A stretch of DNA of 64,000 bases. Origin: Polycladomyces zharkentensis. GTDB lineage: Bacteria; Bacillota; Bacilli; Thermoactinomycetales; JIR-001. The stretch is from positions 62,001-126,000 of the forward strand of contig NZ_JAFHAP010000011.1 in NCBI RefSeq assembly GCF_016938855.1, given 5' to 3'. A program made the position numbers and the translations under genes. A model generated the notes under the pieces. That model saw nothing but the letters and a program-made list of their open reading frames with translations. It was not told where the DNA came from and did no database searches. Below, in pieces: positions 72 to 28,265 of this stretch (positions within the stretch are counted from its first letter, which is position 1; each line of letters opens with the position of its first letter).

Positions 72-731
72 GTGATTCCGATCGGGGTCTGCGAAAAAAT
101 ATTGCCTTCTTTGCTGCAAGGGCTTGGAATCACGGTTCAGCTGACGATCTATTCGGCGATATTGGCCTTTTTCGTCTCCTTTTTGGCAGGGTTTGGACGT
201 CTGTCGCGGTTTTATCCGCTCCGAGCGGTGTGCACTGTTTTTGTTGAAGTTTTTCGCGGAACCTCTTTGCTCGTTCAATTGTTTTGGCTTTATTTTGTCC
301 TGCCGCAGCTCGGCATCTGGTTGTCGGCGGATTTGGCGGGTTTGCTCGCTCTCGGTCTTAACGCCGGGGCGTATGGATCAGAAATCGTCCGCAGCTCGAT
401 ATTGGCCGTCCCCAAGGGGCAGATCGAAGCGGCTGTTGCGCTGAACATGACACCGGGGCAGAGGATGCGGAGTGTGATCCTGCCGCAGGCTTTCCGCATC
501 ATGTTGCCATCTTTCGGTAATCTTTTCATCGAATTGTTGAAAGGAACCTCTTTGGTTTCCTTGATTACGATTTCTGATATGACATTTCAGGCGACAACCT
601 TGCGGACCAATATGAATCAGCATACCCCTGAAATATTCGGTCTGTTGCTCATCTTGTATTTTCTCGTCGCCTATCCGCTGACGTTGGGCGTGCGTTGGTT
701 GGAGCGCAGACTTTCAACGGGGAGGTCTTAA
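72..731 (+). CDS. ehuC: Ectoine/hydroxyectoine-type ABC importer permease (EhuC-like)
   Basis: Membrane permease of a polar-amino-acid (HisMQ) type ABC importer, 219 aa with about five hydrophobic segments. The cytoplasmic coupling loop that contacts the ATPase is visible near residues 115-140 (EAAVALNMTPGQ followed by ILPQAFR). The frame is closed by a stop at 51-53, so the GTG at 72 is the first usable start, with AAAGGA directly before it. A second permease follows after one base, then an ATPase. The cluster abuts ectABCD, which is why ectoine uptake is inferred. The binding protein (EhuB) would lie upstream of the window. The family is certain; the substrate is inferred from context. Confidence 0.75.
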   Translation: MIPIGVCEKILPSLLQGLGITVQLTIYSAILAFFVSFLAGFGRLSRFYPLRAVCTVFVEVFRGTSLLVQLFWLYFVLPQLGIWLSADLAGLLALGLNAGAYGSEIVRSSILAVPKGQIEAAVALNMTPGQRMRSVILPQAFRIMLPSFGNLFIELLKGTSLVSLITISDMTFQATTLRTNMNQHTPEIFGLLLILYFLVAYPLTLGVRWLERRLSTGRS

Positions 732-732
732 C

Positions 733-1404
733 GTGGGATGGTCTTGGACGTTTACTTTGCAAATTTTACCGCAACTGCTCGATGCCGTGAAGATTACGAT
801 TGGTGCGACGATCGTCTCCTATTTGATTGCACTTGTCGGCGGTCTGTTGATCGCCTTTGCACGACGGTCTGAGGTCAAGCTTTTGTCATGGGTGACCGGC
901 GGTTTTATCGAATTTGTGCGCAGCACACCGCCATTGGTTCAGTTGTTCTTCATTTTTTATGTGGCACCTCATTTTGGATTGAGGTTGTCTCCTTTCACGG
1001 CTGGTGTACTGGGATTGGGCATTCACTATAGCACCTATCTGTCGGAGGTATACAGGGCAGGTATTGACGCGGTCCCGCGCGGGCAATGGGAAGCTGCCGT
1101 CGCCCTCAACTTTTCAAAAACGCAAACGTGGATGCGGATTATTCTCCCGCAGGCCGTCCGGCCGATTGTTCCCGTATTGGGCAACTATTTGATCGTGATG
1201 TTTAAAGAAACGCCGCTTTTATCGGCAATCACGCTGATCGAGTTGCTGGGTCAAGCGCAAATTATCGGCTCCAATTCATTCCGCTATTTGGAACCCATTA
1301 CGCTTGTCGGGGTGTTTTTCCTCATATTGAGTTACCTTTCCTCACTCCTGGTACGCCGCTTGGAATCTTGGCTCCAACTCAATCAAAAAGGATTGATAAA
1401 CTGA
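733..1404 (+). CDS. ehuD: Ectoine/hydroxyectoine-type ABC importer permease (EhuD-like)
   Basis: Second permease of the same importer, 223 aa, homologous to the preceding gene, so the two probably form the heterodimeric channel. The coupling loop is near residues 120-145 (EAAVALNFSKTQ then ILPQAVRP). The GTG start has GGAGG about seven bases upstream, inside the end of the first permease gene, so the two are translationally linked. Five or so transmembrane helices are visible. The ectoine assignment rests on the neighbouring ect operon; other PAAT substrates cannot be excluded from sequence. Confidence 0.75.
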   Translation: MGWSWTFTLQILPQLLDAVKITIGATIVSYLIALVGGLLIAFARRSEVKLLSWVTGGFIEFVRSTPPLVQLFFIFYVAPHFGLRLSPFTAGVLGLGIHYSTYLSEVYRAGIDAVPRGQWEAAVALNFSKTQTWMRIILPQAVRPIVPVLGNYLIVMFKETPLLSAITLIELLGQAQIIGSNSFRYLEPITLVGVFFLILSYLSSLLVRRLESWLQLNQKGLIN

Positions 1405-1419
1405 AGGGGTTTTGAGGTG

Positions 1420-2241
1420 ATGCATGTGAAATCGGATCGCATAAACCCAATTGTTCGTTACCGCAAGGTCAGCAAGTTCTATGGCAAAACTCAAGTGTTG
1501 CACGAAATCGATTTTGATTTGGCTCCTGCAGAAAAAGTAGCGGTAATCGGGCCGAGCGGGTCCGGCAAGACGACGTTTGCCCGTGTTTTGATGACGTTGG
1601 AAAGGCCGACGTCGGGTACGATTGAAGTTGACGGTGAGTTGCTCTGGCACAAAAAAAAGGGCGGGAAGCTTGTTCCGGCTGATGAAAAACATTTGCATCA
1701 AGTGCGCGGCAAAATCGGAATGGTGTTTCAGCAGTTTAATCTGTTTCCGCACATGAACATTTTGCGAAATGTGACGGAGGCACCGATCAAGGTATTGGGA
1801 TTGTCCAAGGAAGAAGCGATCGAGCAGGCCAAAACCATGTTGGATAAAGTAGGGTTGCTGGATAAGATCGACGCATATCCGTCACAATTATCCGGCGGTC
1901 AGCAGCAGCGGGTGGCGATTGCGCGTGCGTTGGTCATGCAACCCAAGATCATGTTGTTTGATGAGGTGACGTCTGCGTTGGACCCTGAGCTTGTCGGGGA
2001 GGTTCTCGGGGTTATCAAGGAGATTGCAGCGGAGGGCAAGATGGCGATGTTGATCATTACACATGAAATGGGTTTTGCCCGGGAAGTGGCGGATCGGGTT
2101 GTTTTCTTTGATGAAGGACGAATTATGGAAGAAGGACCGCCGGAAAAGATTTTTGGTGACAGTCCGAAGAGTCCACGTTTACGTAAGTTTTTGGGCAGTT
2201 TTTGTCAGCAGACGATAGAGTCGATGTCCAATTGGAGATGA
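1420..2241 (+). CDS. ehuA: ABC importer ATP-binding protein (EhuA-like)
   Basis: ATPase energising the adjacent permeases, 273 aa. It has Walker A (GPSGSGKTT), Q-loop ([10 protein letters not shown]), signature ([15 protein letters not shown]), Walker B ([14 protein letters not shown]) and the switch histidine (ITHEMGF), all in PAAT-type context. A GTG at 1417 and ATG at 1420 are both possible; AAGGGG about ten bases upstream favours 1420. A short insertion around [16 protein letters not shown] after the first beta sheet is slightly unusual but is seen in EhuA/HisP relatives. The C-terminal tail beyond the usual fold ([11 protein letters not shown]) is not conserved. No terminator is obvious before the ect leader. 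Confidence 0.8.
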
Positions 2242-2430
2242 ATGGCAGTGGAACGAAGCGAGAAAGGGAGAATAGATCAATTCATCCGATCTGAACATAG
2301 GAGAAAGAGTATACGAGGGGATCAACGGAATTTATAGAGGATGAATCATTATGGTAAATATGGTATTATAAGACAAAGTAAAAATATTAACAATTGATTG
2401 TAGGAAACAGTTTATATTGACAATTAAAGA
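2242..2430 (+). other. AT-rich ehu-ect intergenic region, probable ect promoter zone
   Basis: This AT-rich stretch separates ehuA from the structured leader of ectABCD. It contains several A+T blocks (for example TATTATAAG near 2360 and TTATAT near 2412), but no hexamer pair with good spacing stands out, so no promoter is called. Transcription of the leader at 2431 should start here. Confidence 0.35.
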
Positions 2431-2615
2431 CGCCTTATTTCATTTCGATGGAAACGGGGGAACCAAGCGATTGGGGTGAATTCCGGATTGACACCGGAAT
2501 AGATGTGAAGCATTTCTCATCCATCTTGCCCGCCAGCCTTGTCGGCTGAAGCAGTGAGATCCAAGGGATTTGCCAATTTTGCGCCGGACTGACTTTTCCT
2601 GTGCACGAGAAGGCG
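2431..2615 (+). promoter_or_regulatory. Candidate riboswitch in the ectABCD leader (resembles the c-di-AMP ydaO/yuaA class)
   Basis: An outer helix can form between CGCCTT at 2431-2436 and AAGGCG at 2610-2615. Inside it is the pair of blocks GGGGGAACCAA (2456-2466) and TTGGGGTGAAT (2471-2481), which is the hallmark 5' half of the ydaO/yuaA c-di-AMP aptamer as I know it. A terminator follows at 2651-2724. The 3' half is divergent: the conserved CCGAA...CAGCTAACC block is not clearly present. The class assignment is therefore a hypothesis; that this is a structured attenuated leader is better supported. c-di-AMP control of osmolyte genes is established for this class. Confidence 0.5.
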
Positions 2616-2650
2616 GATCTGAGTCTTTGACCGCGTACGGATTGCACAAG

Positions 2651-2724
2651 CACGGACCGGTACAGACTTTTTCCTTGGAATGATGGTTCCTGGGAGAAAG
2701 TTTGCACCGGTCTTGTACTTTTTT
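2651..2724 (+). terminator. Intrinsic terminator in the ect leader (attenuator)
   Basis: A long hairpin pairs GACCGGT (2655-2661) and the following bases with ACCGGTC (2706-2712) and is followed by a T-rich run. It lies ~70 bases before ectA and after the candidate aptamer, so it would stop transcription before ectABCD unless an alternative fold prevents it. Confidence 0.75.
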
Positions 2725-2793
2725 AATCGGCGATGACGCGCTGTGCGGGACATTTTGGCATGGCGTTGAGCCGTCGGTACCGGGGAGGAGGTG

Positions 2794-3309
2794 ATGAATC
2801 TGGAAACCGGGTTGATGAACAAAGTGGCGCTTCGCCAACCACAGGTAGCGGATGGAATCGGGATCTGGAGCCTGGTTCGGGACACCGGAGTGTTGGACGT
2901 CAATTCCCCTTACAGTTACCTGATGCTGTGCAAGTTCTTTTCGGATACTTGTGTGGTTGCCGAACAGGAGGGACAAATCGTCGGTTTTTTGTCCGCTTTT
3001 CGACCACCGGCAGACCAGCAAACCCTGTTTGTGTGGCAGGTGGCCGTGGCCGAGTCTCAACGGGGCAACGGGTTGGGAAAGGCGCTTCTGAAAGCGTTGA
3101 TCCGTCGGGACGCTTGCAAAAATGTCCGTTATCTTGAAGCAACCGTTTCTCCGTCGAATCTTGCATCCCAGGCTTTATTCCGGGGATTGGCACGGGATTT
3201 TGCAACGTGCTGTGAAGTTTCGGAGTGTTTTCCCGCCCATCTGTTCCCGGGGGGAACTCATGAATCGGAAATGACGTTTCGGATCGGACCGTTTCGGTAT
3301 CAAACTTAA
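2794..3309 (+). CDS. ectA: L-2,4-diaminobutyrate N4-acetyltransferase
   Basis: First step after diaminobutyrate formation in ectoine synthesis: acetyl-CoA-dependent acetylation of L-2,4-diaminobutyrate. The 171-aa protein is a single GNAT domain. The acetyl-CoA loop QRGNGLG is at residues 89-95, after the typical beta strand WQVAVAE. The early motif [14 protein letters not shown] is characteristic of EctA. ATG 2794 is chosen because GGGGAGG ends five bases upstream; a GTG lies one codon earlier. It is the first gene of an ectABCD operon whose leader carries a terminator. Length and order match the family. Confidence 0.93.
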
Positions 3310-3322
3310 CTGGGGGGATTTG

Positions 3323-4606
3323 GTGAAAGTTGCGGAGGAATTACATTCACCGTTGAAGGTTTTTGAAGCTTTGGAATCGGAGGTCCGCAGTTACTGCCGG
3401 AGTTTTCCGACTGTCTTTGCAAAAGCGAGCGGCTATCAGCTGTGGGATCGGGACGGCCGGGAATATGTCGACTTTTTTGCCGGTGCCGGCGCGTTAAACT
3501 ACGGCCACAACAATCAACGAATCAAGGCCAAGCTGATCGACTATTTGATGGAAGATGGCATTACGCACAGCCTTGATATGGCGACAGAAGCAAAAGAAAA
3601 GCTGCTGGAACGGTTCCATGAGGTCATTTTAAAGCCGCGAAATCTTCACTATAAAGTGATGTTTCCGGGACCGACAGGCACCAATTCGGTGGAAAGTGCG
3701 CTGAAGCTGGCCCGCAAAGTAACCGGGCGGGACACAATCATGAGTTTCACCAACGCGTTTCACGGCATGACAATCGGTTCGCTGTCGATTACCGGGAACG
3801 AATCCAAGCGAAAAGGCGCGGGCATTCCATTGACGAATTCGATCTCCATGCCGTTTGACGGCTATTTTGGCAGTGAGGCCGACACGGTCAGCTATATTGA
3901 GCGTTTTCTCGAAGATAATGGCAGCGGCATTTCTCTCCCTGCAGCCATTATCCTTGAGACCGTTCAGGGTGAAGGCGGCATCAATGTGGCCAGTTTTGAG
4001 TGGCTCCGCAACATGGAAGAACTGTGCCGGCGCTGGAACATTCTGTTGATTGTCGATGATGTGCAGGTGGGATGTGGACGGACGGGGCCATTTTTCAGCT
4101 TTGAACCGGCCGGGATCTATCCCGACATCGTCTGTCTGTCCAAATCAATCGGGGGATATGGCATCCCGTTGGCGATGACCTTGATCAAACCTGAGTATGA
4201 TCTGTGGGAACCGGGCGAGCATAACGGTACTTTTCGCGGCCATAACCTGGGGTTTGTCGCTGCGACCGAAGCACTCAGTTACTGGGAAGACGACCAGTTC
4301 AGCCGAGAAATCCTGGAGAAGGGAGAGAAAGTCAGACTCTTCCTGGAAATGCTTGCACAACAGTATCCCGAGATGGCAGGGGAAGTGCGGGGAAGAGGGC
4401 TTATCCAGGGAATTGAAATCGGAGTGGACGGGTTGGCCGAAAAGATTTGCGCGGCCGCGTTTGAACGGGGTTTGATTATGGAAACATCCGGTCCCAACAG
4501 TGAAGTCGTCAAAATCATGCCTCCTTTGACCATTGATGAACAGGGGCTTGAAAAGGGACTGACCGTTCTGGAGGAAAGCTTTGAGCGGTGCAAACAGATG
4601 ATGTGA
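3323..4606 (+). CDS. ectB: Diaminobutyrate-2-oxoglutarate aminotransferase
   Basis: PLP enzyme that converts L-aspartate-beta-semialdehyde and glutamate to L-2,4-diaminobutyrate, supplying ectoine synthesis. The 427-aa protein is a class III aminotransferase. The N-terminal [14 protein letters not shown] and phosphate-binding GPTGTNSVE motifs are seen, followed by [13 protein letters not shown] and the Schiff-base lysine in [10 protein letters not shown] (Lys ~274). GTG 3323 is preferred, with GGGGGG five bases upstream. It sits 13 bases after ectA and 18 before ectC, consistent with one transcript. Length is usual for EctB. Confidence 0.94.
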
Positions 4607-4624: not shown

Positions 4625-5098
4625 ATGATCGTCAAACATCTGAATGACATCATCGGAACGAAAGATGACGTGGACACTGAGACGTGGAACAGCCGCCGTC
4701 TGCTTTTGAAAAAGGACGGGATGGGCTTTTCGTTGCACGACACGATTATCAAGGCGGGAACAGAAACCACGATTTGGTACAAGCACCATGTGGAAGCGGT
4801 GTACTGCATCGAGGGAGAAGGAGAAATTGAGGTCGTGAAAGACGGCACCGTTTACCCGATTCAGCCCGGAACTTTGTATGCGCTGGACGGTCATGAAAAG
4901 CACTATTTGCGTGCAAAGTCCGATATGCGGATGGTTTGTGTGTTTCATCCGCCGTTGACAGGGCGAGAGGTACATGATGAAGAAGGGGTGTATCCCATCA
5001 TTGAAGAGGAGTCACGGGAGAATCGCCCGAATCCACACCCTGACGAAAGGGCACAAAGGGTGGAACCACAAACCGTTCGGGGGGAATTGGGGAAATGA
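4625..5098 (+). CDS. ectC: L-ectoine synthase with C-terminal extension
   Basis: Cyclises N4-acetyl-diaminobutyrate to ectoine. The cupin core occupies residues 1 to about 130, with [12 protein letters not shown] at the start, the [11 protein letters not shown] strand and the metal-site region [24 protein letters not shown] precedes the ATG. The protein is 157 aa, some 20-30 residues longer than the usual ~130. The extra tail (after VYPIIEEE) is polar and rich in Glu, Arg and Pro. The stop codon overlaps the start of the hydroxylase gene by four bases. Confidence 0.93.
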
Positions 5099-5985
5099 GC
5101 AACTTACAGGGCGGGGTGATGGATCTCTATCCTTCGCGAGTGGATGACAAACCGGTGATTTTGGAACGGAAAGATCCAGTCATTTATACCAAAGATCCCG
5201 CAGCAGGTCCGCTTGATGCCGAACAGCTGGAATTTTATCAGAAAAACGGATACCTGTTCTTCGAACGTTTCTTTTCTGAGGAAGAAGTGCGGGAATTGCG
5301 CAATGAGCTGAGACGGCTCTGGGATGCGAACCGGGATTCGGATGCGGAGGAAGTGATTCGTGAGCCGGAAAGCCGGGAAATTCGATCGATCTTTGCTGTT
5401 CACCGCAACAGCGATACTTTTAAACGGTTATCGCAAAATCAGCGGCTGACAGACATCGTCAAACAAATTCTCGGCAGTGATGTCTACATCCATCAGTCCC
5501 GAATCAATTACAAAAAGGGTTTTGCGGGAAAAGAGTTTTACTGGCACTCTGACTTCGAGACCTGGCATGTGGAGGATGGCATGCCGCGTATGCGGGCGTT
5601 GAGCTGTTCCATCTCGTTGGAAGACAATTATCACTTTAACGGGCCGTTGATGGTGATTCCGGGCTCCCATCAATATTTTCTCTCTTGTGTGGGCCGTACG
5701 CCGGAAAATCATTATCGGCAGTCGCTTCGGAGACAGGAGTACGGCGTTCCGGACCAGGACAGTTTGACCTGGTTGGTGAATCAGCACGGGATTGACGCAT
5801 TGACAGGCCCGGCCGGTTCGGTCGTGCTGTTCGACTGTAACATCATGCACGGGTCCAACGGCAATATCACCCCTTTGCCGCGGAGCAATGTGTTCTTTGT
5901 TTACAACAGTGTGGAAAACCGGTTGGTGGAACCGTTCTCCGGGCAATCACCCCGGCCGGAGTTTATAGCAAGCAGAGAGCGGTAA
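5095..5985 (+). CDS. ectD: Ectoine 5-hydroxylase
   Basis: Fe(II)/2-oxoglutarate dioxygenase that makes 5-hydroxyectoine, often linked to heat and desiccation protection. The 296-aa protein shows the facial triad: His151 and Asp153 in YWHSDFETW and His252 in NIMHGSNGN, with the 2-oxoglutarate-binding Arg shortly after (PLPRSNVFF). The ATG overlaps the ectC stop (ATGA), so the two are translationally coupled. It ends the operon; a palindromic terminator lies ~110 bases downstream. Length matches the family (~300 aa). Confidence 0.94.
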
Positions 5986-13325: not shown

Positions 13326-13419
13326 GTTTTTGAACTACCTATAAGGAATTGAAACTCCAAGAACCGAACGTCGTCGGCCACAACCTCCGTGACGTTTATG
13401 AACTACCTATAAGGAATTG
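13326..13419 (+). CRISPR. CRISPR array 3: one full and one truncated repeat, one 38-base spacer
   Basis: Repeat 13326-13355 begins GTTTTTGAACTACC and ends GAATTGAAAC. After a 38-base spacer (13356-13393) a second repeat begins GTTTATGAACTACC but is cut after GGAATTG at 13419, where it joins the trailing sequence also seen after array 1. A terminator follows at 13440-13464. Confidence 0.7.
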
Positions 13420-17267: not shown

Positions 17268-17736
17268 GTGTGTCTGGTCATTTGATCATGTTCCCGGGTG
17301 AGCGATTGCCCCGGTTTGGCCGAGCGAAGGCCCGGAAAGAACGCAGGGATGGTTTCGCGGGCAATCCCACCAGGCGTGTCAGGTCATTCCGTAAGGGAGC
17401 AATGTTTTCCCAGGCGAGCGACTGACCAAGCCCTGACTGAGCGAAGACACGGGAAGCGCAGGATGGAAATCGCGGGCCATTTCCGCAAAGCGAAGCGTAC
17501 TTTGCCCGCGACCTGCGCTGACCGGGTCGGAGCGGTCATCATCTGCATCCCTGCAGGGCGCAGGTGGAGTGAGCCGGGAAAGCAATGTGGACAACACCAG
17601 ACACACTCTAGGCAAAGCGTACTTTGCCTGCCCGTGTCCCGCGCTCGGGATCGGAGTGATCATGATCTTCTTCCTTGCAAGGTGCAGATGAAACGAACCG
17701 GGAAAACAATGTGGACTGTATTCACCAGACACGCCC
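17268..17736 (+). repeat. Composite of dispersed GTGTGTCTGG-type elements; left copy of a ~415-bp direct repeat
   Basis: Bases 17291-17710 recur at 18628-19040 with roughly 90% identity by eye. Within them are at least two nested elements: ends GTGTGTCTGGT (17268), GGCGTGTCAGGT (17373), ACCAGACACACTC (~17596) and ACCAGACACGCCC (17724). Internal blocks such as GCGAAGCGTACTTTGCC and GAGCCGGGAAAGCAATG recur at 41.2 and 48.9 kb. No transposase is encoded; the structure is MITE-like. Confidence 0.75.
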
Positions 17737-18594: not shown

Positions 18595-19045
18595 AGCGTG
18601 TGAGGTAAATCCGTGAGAGATAAAGCTTTCCCGGGTGAGCGATTGCCCCGGTTTGGCCGAGAAAGGCCCGGAAAGAACGCATGGATGGTTTCGCGGGCAA
18701 TCCCACTAGGCGTGTCTGGTCATTCCGTAAGGGAGTAATGTTTTCCCAGACGAGCGACTGACCAAGCCCTGACTGAGCGAAGACTCGGAAGCGCAGGATG
18801 GAAATCGCGGGCCATTTCCTCAAAGCGAAGCGTACTTTGCCCGCAACCTGCGCTGACCGGGTCGGAGCGGTCATCATCTGCATCCCTGCAGGGCGCAGGT
18901 GGAACGAACCGGGAAAGCACCGTGAACAACACCAGACACACTCTAGGCAAAGCGTACTTTTCCTGCCCGCATCCTGCGCTCCGGATCGGCCATGATCGAC
19001 TTTCTGAGAGGGTGCAGGTGGAGCGAACCGGGAAAGCGATAGGGG
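18595..19045 (+). repeat. Right copy of the ~415-bp direct repeat (dispersed element composite)
   Basis: Begins at the reductase stop codon with AGCGTGTGAGGT, and from 18628 follows the left copy base by base with scattered changes to ~19040. It again holds GGCGTGTCTGGT and ACCAGACACACTC ends internally (18714 and ~18935). The two copies in the same orientation frame the reductase gene. Confidence 0.8.
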
Positions 19046-23482: not shown

Positions 23483-24118
23483 TCAGCTCTGCGTGCCATG
23501 GGGAGTCACTTTTCGCTCCAGCAAACGGAACATCAGATCGAATGCCATGGCCAACAATGCGGCGGGAATGGCGCCGGCCAAGATGAGATTGTTGTCATTC
23601 ATGCTCATGCCACGGACGATCAGATCACCCAATCCACCGCCGCCGATAAAGGCGGCCAGTGCTGCCAAGCCGACGGTGAATACGGATGCGGTGCGGATTC
23701 CGGCCATGATAATCGGGAGCGAAAGCGGTAATTCCACCATCCACAGGATCTGCCGGGAGGTCATGCCCATCCCTTTGCCCGCATCGATGACGGAGCGATC
23801 GACTCCGAGGATGCCGGTGTAGGTGTTCCGGATGATGGGCAGGAGCGCGTACAGGGTCAAGGCGACGATGGCCGGAGTTTTTCCGATCCCGAACAACGGA
23901 AGCATGAAGGCCAGCAGCGCAAGACCCGGAACCGTCTGAATCAGTGCGGCCAACCCGATAATCGGTTCCGCGATCCACCGGTAGCGGGTAAGGATGATAC
24001 CCAGCGGTACCGCAACCAGGATGGCGATCAGCATCGCCACACCGGACAGGTAAAGATGATCAATGAAGGCCACCCAGATGTCCGTTTTCCGACTGATGAT
24101 CGTTTCCCACAGGCTCAT
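23483..24118 (-). CDS. opuCB: Glycine betaine/carnitine/choline-type ABC importer permease
   Basis: A 211-aa permease of the OpuCB/OpuCD class with five to six helices. It has the class motif (FMLPLFGIGKTPAIVALTLY) and the coupling loop DAGKGMGMTSRQI then VELPLSLPII. Its start overlaps the ATPase gene end by four bases. Only one permease is encoded, whereas Bacillus opuC has two (CB and CD), so it probably forms a homodimer, as in related three-gene systems. Osmoprotectant is the likely substrate class; the exact compound is not deducible. Confidence 0.85.
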   Translation of the reverse strand: MSLWETIISRKTDIWVAFIDHLYLSGVAMLIAILVAVPLGIILTRYRWIAEPIIGLAALIQTVPGLALLAFMLPLFGIGKTPAIVALTLYALLPIIRNTYTGILGVDRSVIDAGKGMGMTSRQILWMVELPLSLPIIMAGIRTASVFTVGLAALAAFIGGGGLGDLIVRGMSMNDNNLILAGAIPAALLAMAFDLMFRLLERKVTPHGTQS

Positions 24119-25254
24119 GTTGTCACGCTCCCTTCCGATTGATGATGTGTCCAGTCGGCCAGTCCGCGCATCATACTGCTGCGGGTGACGACGCCGATCA
24201 GCCGTTTCCCCTCCACTACGGGTATGGCGTTTTGTTTACCGTCCCGGAACACTTCGGCCACCTCGTTCACCGGGGTGTCGATCGTGAGGATGGGAATCTC
24301 CGTTTCCATGATGTCTGCTACCGTGCAATCTTCCTGTTCGTAGTGCTGATCCACCCGTTCCAGGGTGACGCTGCCCAGCAGTTGTCGTTGGTTGTCAATG
24401 ACGAACAAGCTGTCCACTTTTTTCTCTTTCATGATGCGGAACGCTTCGGCCAATCCCCGTTTGGGCGAAACGGTAACCGGAGACTGATGCATCAGGTCCC
24501 GTGCCGTCGGAACGACCGACCCTCCGTTCAACCGTTCCTCACCGATAAATCCGCGTACGAAGTCGTTGGCCGGTCGACGCAGGATGCGGTCGGGGCTGTC
24601 CACTTGCACCAGCTTGCCGTTATTCATGATGGCGATCCGACTGGCGATCCGGATCGCTTCGTCCATGTCGTGGGTGACGAACACGATGGTTTTGCGGATC
24701 GACTCCTGCAGGTTCACCAATTCCTCCTGCAATTGTTCCCGACTGATCGGGTCGAGCGCGCTGAACGGCTCATCCATCAGGATAATGTCCGGCTCACCCG
24801 CCAGTGCCCGGATGACGCCGACGCGTTGTTGTTGCCCCCCGCTCAGCTCCGACGGGTACCGGTCCTTGTATGTTTCAGGGTCCAGACCGACCAAGTCCAG
24901 CAATTCGTTTACCCGTTTTTCGTAACGATCGGGATGCCATTTTTTCAGCTTGGGCACCAAGGCGATATTTTCTTCGATGGTCATGTGGGGAAACAGGCCG
25001 ATCTCTTGGATCACGTACCCGATATTGCGTCTGAGTTCAACCGGGTCGATCCGGGAGATGTCCTCCCCGTCGATCGTGATCGTACCGCTCGTCGGTTCGA
25101 TCAGCCGGTTGATCATGCGCATGGTCGTCGTTTTCCCGCATCCGCTGGGGCCAATCAGGACGAGTAATTCCCCTTTTTGGATTTCCAGATTCAGATTGTC
25201 GATGGCAACCGTTCCATCCTTGTATCGTTTGCTTACATGTTCAAAACGAATCAT
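24115..25254 (-). CDS. opuCA: Osmoprotectant ABC importer ATPase with tandem CBS domains
   Basis: A 379-aa ATPase. Walker A GPSGCGKTT (~residues 37-45), signature [11 protein letters not shown], Walker B IILMDEPFSALDP and switch FVTHDMDEA are all present. After ~residue 250 come two CBS repeats (MHQSPVTVSPKRGLAEAF; VADIMETEIPILTIDTPV). In OpuCA of Firmicutes such CBS domains sense ionic strength or bind c-di-AMP, which shuts uptake. Located between the binding protein and permease genes. The CBS role here is inferred from family. Confidence 0.9.
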   Translation of the reverse strand: MIRFEHVSKRYKDGTVAIDNLNLEIQKGELLVLIGPSGCGKTTTMRMINRLIEPTSGTITIDGEDISRIDPVELRRNIGYVIQEIGLFPHMTIEENIALVPKLKKWHPDRYEKRVNELLDLVGLDPETYKDRYPSELSGGQQQRVGVIRALAGEPDIILMDEPFSALDPISREQLQEELVNLQESIRKTIVFVTHDMDEAIRIASRIAIMNNGKLVQVDSPDRILRRPANDFVRGFIGEERLNGGSVVPTARDLMHQSPVTVSPKRGLAEAFRIMKEKKVDSLFVIDNQRQLLGSVTLERVDQHYEQEDCTVADIMETEIPILTIDTPVNEVAEVFRDGKQNAIPVVEGKRLIGVVTRSSMMRGLADWTHHQSEGSVTT

Positions 25255-28089: not shown

Positions 28090-28150
28090 TATCTCCAAAT
28101 CCTTTTCGTTCGTCTGTTCCGAAAAAATCACATAATCCGATTAGCGGAAC

Positions 28151-28265
28151 TCTTATCCAGAGTGGCGGAGGGACTGGCCCGATGAAGCCCGGCAACCTAT
28201 TTGAGAGGGATTGCCTTTCAAATGTGGTGCCAATTCCTGCAGAGGGTATCTCTGGGAGATGAGAG
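28151..28265 (+). promoter_or_regulatory. SAM-I (S-box) riboswitch
   Basis: Classical S-box landmarks are in order: CTCTTATCCAGAG closing helix, GGCGGAGGGACTGGCCC, GATGAAGCCCGGCAACC, GTGGTGCCAATTCC and the returning GGGAGATGAGAG. A terminator follows at 28285. Binding of SAM stabilises the terminator and turns off the downstream methionine genes. Confidence 0.95.

Follow-up and report, generated by a model that had tools for sequence, protein, structure and literature searches.

The leader between the ectoine importer genes and ectABCD in this genome was found to be homologous to the c-di-AMP riboswitch of the ydaO/yuaA family, and on the sequence comparisons made here this homology is regarded as secure. 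It is considered probable that the leader descends from an osmolyte-type c-di-AMP OFF riboswitch, that the response of its sensor has most likely gone, for the greater part or entirely, and that the terminator and predicted antiterminator still set the transcription of ectABCD. Control of the ehu-ect genes by c-di-AMP in the ancestor is a strong inference, and present-day c-di-AMP sensing by this copy appears doubtful.

Locus and aptamer domain

The window, i.e., the whole analysed stretch of 64,000 nucleotides, carries the leader in the gap between the end of ehuA (2241) and the start of ectA (2791). The flanking ehu and ect genes were named by the NCBIfam curated cut-offs (Table), which bore out the position before ectABCD given in the original prediction. 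The upstream ehuC-ehuD-ehuA genes of the ectoine/hydroxyectoine importer had been absent from it; the start of ehuB lies just outside the window on the upstream side (locus L151). The OpuCA-like frame mentioned in the same prediction is present at 24115-25254 on the minus strand. A promoter scan found no plus-strand promoter for the leader, and a possible extended -10 element was noted by inspection. Besides the ect aptamer, the genome contains three canonical ydaO aptamers of 86-115 bits, which according to the frames read precede a KimA-like transporter, a SleB-like hydrolase and an ABC ATPase, and it encodes two diadenylate cyclases. Elsewhere in the window a SAM riboswitch was recorded at 28150-28265 (89.4 bits, cut-off 44.4), as was a single CRISPR direct-repeat (RF01315) match just over the cut-off at 13326-13355 on the minus strand.

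Table. Features of the ehu-ect locus and of the miniature element family; positions are those of the window unless a genome or locus is named.
Feature	Position	Strand	Basis
ehuC, ectoine/hydroxyectoine ABC permease	72..731	+	NCBIfam TIGR03004, 256 bits, cut-off 197
ehuD, ectoine/hydroxyectoine ABC permease	733..1404	+	NCBIfam TIGR03003, 308 bits, cut-off 205
ehuA, ectoine/hydroxyectoine ABC ATPase	1417..2241	+	NCBIfam TIGR03005, 371 bits, cut-off 345
Possible extended -10 element TGGTATTAT	2361..2369	+	Inspection only; stretch AATATGGTAnTATAA conserved in three species
Divergent aptamer region, RF00379 homologue, osmolyte/ect subtype	2421..2563	+	RF00379 39.9 bits; R1 133 bits at 2427-2554, the window's own sequence being one of the five used to build R1
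5' core ACGGGGGAACCAA; ACGGGG (2454-2459) is the 5' strand of P2	2454..2466	+	Same sequence in the window and both sister species
Second conserved block TTGGGGTGAAT, P3 5' strand and junction	2471..2481	+	RF00379 alignment
P4 hairpin TTCCGG/CCGGAA	2481..2499	+	4 of 4 modelled pairs changed on both sides across 15 homologues
P5 hairpin AGATG/CATCT	2501..2526	+	Compensatory G-C to A-U change relative to two sister species
Rewritten 3' core CCCGCCAGCCTTGTCGGCT	2529..2547	+	Lacks 4 nt (one CCAG) relative to sister species
P2 3' strand CCTTGT	2537-2542	+	Within the rewritten 3' core
New hairpin CAGCC/GGCTG	2534-2538 / 2544-2548	+	Predicted fold
Candidate antiterminator strand UCCAAGG	2560..2566	+	Complementary to CCUUGGA 2673-2679
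Intrinsic terminator, hairpin and TTTTTT (2719-2724)	2650..2724	+	-40.8 kcal/mol, z -8.4; 93-97% identical in the genus
ectA, diaminobutyrate acetyltransferase	2791..3309	+	TIGR02406, 206 bits, cut-off 121
ectB, diaminobutyrate transaminase	3320..4606	+	TIGR02407, 687 bits, cut-off 552
ectC, ectoine synthase	4625..5098	+	NF009806 (PRK13290), 208 bits, cut-off 128
ectD, ectoine hydroxylase	5095..5985	+	TIGR02408, 399 bits, cut-off 337
Miniature element copies	17438-17608, 18774-18943 (G000:C11:79438-79608, 80774-80943); L017:4922-5133		

The resemblance to the ydaO/yuaA aptamer had been claimed from two blocks of the 5' core, GGGGGAACCAA at 2456-2466 and the block at 2471-2481, and both were located. 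The covariance-model scan that had been suggested as a check gave a full-model RF00379 (ydaO/yuaA, c-di-AMP) match on the plus strand with 39.9 bits (E 8e-6 for the 64-kb window), above the gathering score of 38 bits. The same locus in the two sister genomes scored 41.7 and 44.0 bits, so that all three genomes of the genus exceed the cut-off. The match is followed by a terminator and then by ectABCD, an osmotic operon; in the family such a platform is expected before an osmotic or a cell-wall gene.

Covariation was observed among the relatives, and the leader therefore escapes the refutation that had been foreseen from its lack together with the lack of any riboswitch score. In an alignment of 15 aptamers fitted to the ect-type model R1 (alignment A3), 96.9% of the cells were paired, two-sided changes were recorded at 10 pairs, and the covariation score was reached by none of 500 shuffles. 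Covariation thus extends over P1-P5 among the homologues and is weak for P1 within the genus. In the aptamer of the window 25 of the 26 modelled pairs can form. By eye, a putative loop-tail pseudoknot, in which the P5 loop would pair with the 3' tail, comprises 8 bp (UUCUCUGC/GCAGAGAA) in L148-L150; only a shifted UCUCA/UGAGA pairing seems possible in the window, and the pseudoknot appears weak in the first sister species (G001) and broken up by an insertion in the second (G002).

Homologues in other Bacilli

Clear homologues were found in ten Bacilli outside the genus. Two of them (L095 and L103) are RF00379 matches of 68.8 and 69.5 bits directly before ectA. In the other eight genomes the element lies on the same contig and strand as ectA, 3.3-4 kb upstream, and where frames were read it is followed by an EhuB-like gene and then by ehuC-D-A-like genes and ectA. 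Model R1 was built from five aptamers, namely those of the window, the two sister species, L095 and L103, and a search of 398 Bacilli genomes with it revealed a widespread subtype. According to the frames read, the same subtype also stands before ProV/OpuCA-like ATPases, a betaine-type carrier, a KtrB-like protein and an AblB-like acetyltransferase, and for this reason it looks like an osmolyte and potassium class of ydaO aptamers. One locus bearing the subtype marks (L059/L110) was set aside, as it precedes a LysM/3D-domain-like protein by the frame read.

The idea of a general ect leader of the order was rejected: no RF00379 match was detected near twelve other ectA loci of the order or near five further ectA loci on genome contigs. 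At seven loci from other genera of the order (L066, L068, L070 and L072-L075), where RF00379 is absent, a motif TTTGGACGAC-N-GACGTTAgcATA was observed about 100-170 bases before ectA; it is perhaps a common promoter.

The probability that an unrelated structured leader passed the cut-off by accident is considered negligible. The score exceeds the cut-off by only 1.9 bits; however, the same locus passes it in both sister species, homologues of about 69 bits stand before ect genes, and a homologue of the terminator occurs in a distant genome. A chance match was rejected because homologues with intact cores precede ehu-ect operons, and because of the sister loci.

In several families of Bacilli the homologues would link the uptake and synthesis of ectoine, at the level of RNA, with the osmotic second messenger c-di-AMP. 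Such a link was stated nowhere in the open literature searched, the scope of which did not include the gene tables of Block 2010 and Nelson 2013. Moreover, the locus offers a natural experiment: relatives have the leader with its core intact, three sister species have it with the core rewritten, and the comparison lets one study how a ligand is lost by a riboswitch, or exchanged for another, with the terminator unchanged.

The rewritten core and the expression platform

The divergent 3' core that had been predicted proved to be real and, by the sequences compared, genus-specific: GCCCGCCAGCCTTGTCGGC occupies the place where the family has CCCGUCAGCUAACCUCG. The near-invariant 3' core GUCAGCUAACC is missing from the ect leader in the genus. 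Both sister species carry GCCAGCCAGCC there, a tandem from which one CCAG has been lost in the window. The family form CAGCUAAC, or one close to it, is kept by all ten homologues and by essentially every other aptamer examined; 68 aptamers had the core or a close form when checked by pattern. Outside the ect locus the exceptions were a decayed copy at L022 (AUCAACUAAC), one empty locus and three cores that were intact by eye. Among about 70 other aptamers examined, essentially all keep the UAAC core, and it is absent only at the ect locus of the genus.

The extent of the change was counted over 39 columns with a conservation of at least 95% among 56 aptamers; ligand contacts were judged by conservation only. 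Departures numbered 9 in the window (a count that depends partly on how the deletion is aligned), 7 in G001 and 4 in G002, against a mean of 0.29 and a maximum of 4 in the 56 aptamers. The rewritten core is predicted to pair with the 3' strand of P1 (CAGCC/GGCUG in the window). Between the predicted minimum and the family fold there is a gap of 10.0, 21.1 and 22.1 kcal/mol in the genus and of 1.6-6.8 kcal/mol in the ten homologues, under energy models that leave out the pseudoknot, tertiary contacts and the ligand. The measure is imperfect, as the intact-core aptamers L110 and L152 also gave gaps of 13-14 kcal/mol.

Each of the three species bears a lesion of its own. The window has a 4-nt deletion in the core, and G001 has lost the U of GGGGUGAAU with the two preceding bases. 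G002 carries an insertion at TA, directly after the GGCTA of P1; the inserted element measures 212 bp and has terminal inverted repeats, and the sequence beyond it resumes with TAAAGCAG, like the tails of the homologues. The insertion is one copy of a family of miniature transposable elements that measure about 170-235 bp, carry GCGTGTCTGGTAAAT as terminal inverted repeats and target TA; each of the three genomes gave more than 40 matches to the family.

Two weak RF00379 matches, L022 at 2677-2854 (G002:C21; 46.9 bits) and L023 at 2601-2734 (G026:C15; 29.9 bits), were tried as variants like that of the window. They were rejected, because in them the 5' half is broken and the 3' core is intact or nearly so; they are probably decaying ydaO copies and are treated as separate cases.

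The strong terminator that had been predicted downstream was recovered, although a simple terminator scan did not pick up a hairpin of this length; none of 200 shuffles reached its energy. The 315-nt leader folded at z -4.8, but the minimum-energy fold of the whole leader is no guide to the aptamer, since pseudoknots are outside the model. In comparisons that rest on three species, the terminator was more conserved (see Table) than the fourfold sites of ehuA and ectA-D (73-79% identical; about 84% for ectA alone). The 5' core segment was 91-97% identical in the genus, and most of the remaining leader 74-91%. The ect aptamer as a whole was 83-86% identical with 3-4 indel events; the canonical aptamers of the same species were 98% (kimA), 94-95% (ABC) and 82-88% (sleB) identical. 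As a test of decay, overall identity did not separate decay from function, because the sleB aptamer, with its intact core, is hardly more conserved than the ect aptamer. The position of the changes, rather than identity alone, is taken from these alignments as decisive.

In the nascent RNA, the strand predicted to pair best with the terminator 5' arm starts with UCCAAGG, a sequence that all three species keep. In most ehu/ect homologues the P1/tail strand of the aptamer can likewise pair with the terminator 5' arm, and such pairing has been published for c-di-AMP OFF switches (PMC9337991; PMC6488665). In the genome G091 (L147) a terminator AGACCGGTGCAGACTTTTTCTTGGAAC...GTTCC...CAGCACCGGTCT, plainly the same sequence as that of the window, lies behind an intact aptamer 3.4 kb upstream of ectA. 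By eye, CCGGACTGACTTTTCC within 2571-2650 resembles the terminator 5' arm CCGGTACAGACTTTTTCC and is possibly a partial duplication within the expression platform.

Function of the leader and comparison with known systems

We propose the following sequence of events. In the ancestral form, as judged from the homologues and published ydaO switches, c-di-AMP would close P1/P2 and the loop-tail pseudoknot, and the closed aptamer would keep the tail off the terminator 5' arm, leading to termination in osmotically unstressed cells. In the genus the 3' sensing core would then have been rewritten from the near-invariant form to that of the sister species, the new core folding into a local hairpin that captures the 3' strands of P1 and P2, and in this genome one CCAG would additionally have been lost. 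Since the core is rewritten, its hairpin is predicted to capture these strands and the CCAG is missing, the response to c-di-AMP has most likely been lost, largely or wholly. The conserved terminator and the UCCAAGG/CCUUGGA antiterminator may still fix the transcription that enters ectABCD. The sensor is probably impaired, since the genus departs from the family at near-invariant positions and this genome has also lost 4 nt, and the earlier claim that c-di-AMP represses ectoine synthesis is for the same reasons unsupported as it was stated. Two observations speak against decay: the identity of the 5' core lies above the neutral proxy, the fourfold sites of ehuA and ectA-D (although those of ectA alone come closer to it), and this may reflect some constraint that still acts on the aptamer; and the P5 change in the window is compensatory.

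The same two observations favour a still working c-di-AMP OFF riboswitch that tolerates a divergent core and terminates before ectABCD, perhaps with weak or one-of-two-site binding, as do the score above the cut-off, the number of pairs that can form, the possible UCUCA/UGAGA pseudoknot, and the fact that the genome encodes c-di-AMP synthases and has further ydaO switches. This is nevertheless rather unlikely, as a core kept in essentially all other aptamers is changed in three of three species, and the window has in addition the deletion and a strong competing hairpin. A somewhat better, still tentative case can be made for a plain ligand-free attenuator or insulator, in which the terminator blocks read-through from ehu and gives a fixed ect level, and the aptamer is a relic. 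The terminator is the most conserved part, and the 212-bp repeat in G002 separates the aptamer from the platform; however, UCCAAGG and its partner are kept in three species, and a simple terminator needs neither. This reading overlaps with the decayed sensor that we prefer, being its end state.

A retuned riboswitch, the genus-specific core of which recognises another osmoprotection-linked small molecule and acts on the same terminator, is thought very improbable. The altered core is partly common to the three species, the 5' core and the terminator are conserved, and variants of known aptamers with a new ligand have precedents, such as a spermidine riboswitch derived from a SAM aptamer (PMC10853860). 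On the other hand, the altered core varies between the species at or beside further lesions, it folds on itself, and no second locus with an altered core was seen among the loci fetched from the 398-genome search. No positive evidence was obtained for the new ligand class that had been suggested, and the species-specific lesions (deletions and a mobile-element insertion) favour decay over retuning. Only slightly less improbable is a change of trigger in the genus, by which the core hairpin of the former ehu-ect c-di-AMP riboswitch would compete with P1/P2, and another ligand, an ion, temperature or a protein would govern the terminator.

The leader may be compared with three known systems. The ydaO/yuaA riboswitches (RF00379) before kimA/ydaO of Bacillus subtilis and kdpFABC of Bacillus thuringiensis (PMC6488665) share with the window the helix plan P1-P5, the GGGGGAACC and GGGGUGAAU blocks, a downstream terminator and an osmotic or ion gene context. 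In contrast, the leader lacks two GAA elements of the family, the 5' one beside P1 and the one that separates P5 from P3, and the family 3' core is replaced in the genus by CCAGCCAGCC (GCCAGCC in the window), for which a competing hairpin is predicted. The tandem Na+ and c-di-AMP riboswitch before lysine 2,3-aminomutase in Dehalobacter (PMC9337991) is likewise a c-di-AMP OFF system before a gene of compatible-solute synthesis, and its antiterminator is formed by the aptamer P1/pseudoknot strand and the terminator 5' arm, as in the scheme proposed for the window; however, it has two tandem aptamers, and the window has one that is damaged. The osmolyte/ect-type aptamers found here before ehu-ect operons or ectA (L095, L103 and L143-L150) carry the subtype marks GGGAUG/CAUCC followed by U-ACCCG, a GGCUAAAGCAG-like tail and the same genes as the window. 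Unlike the genus, all ten keep GUCAGCUAAC or GACAGCUAAC, and in eight of them the element stands before the ehu genes, whereas in the genus it stands between ehuA and ectA; one of the eight, L147, shares its terminator sequence with the window.
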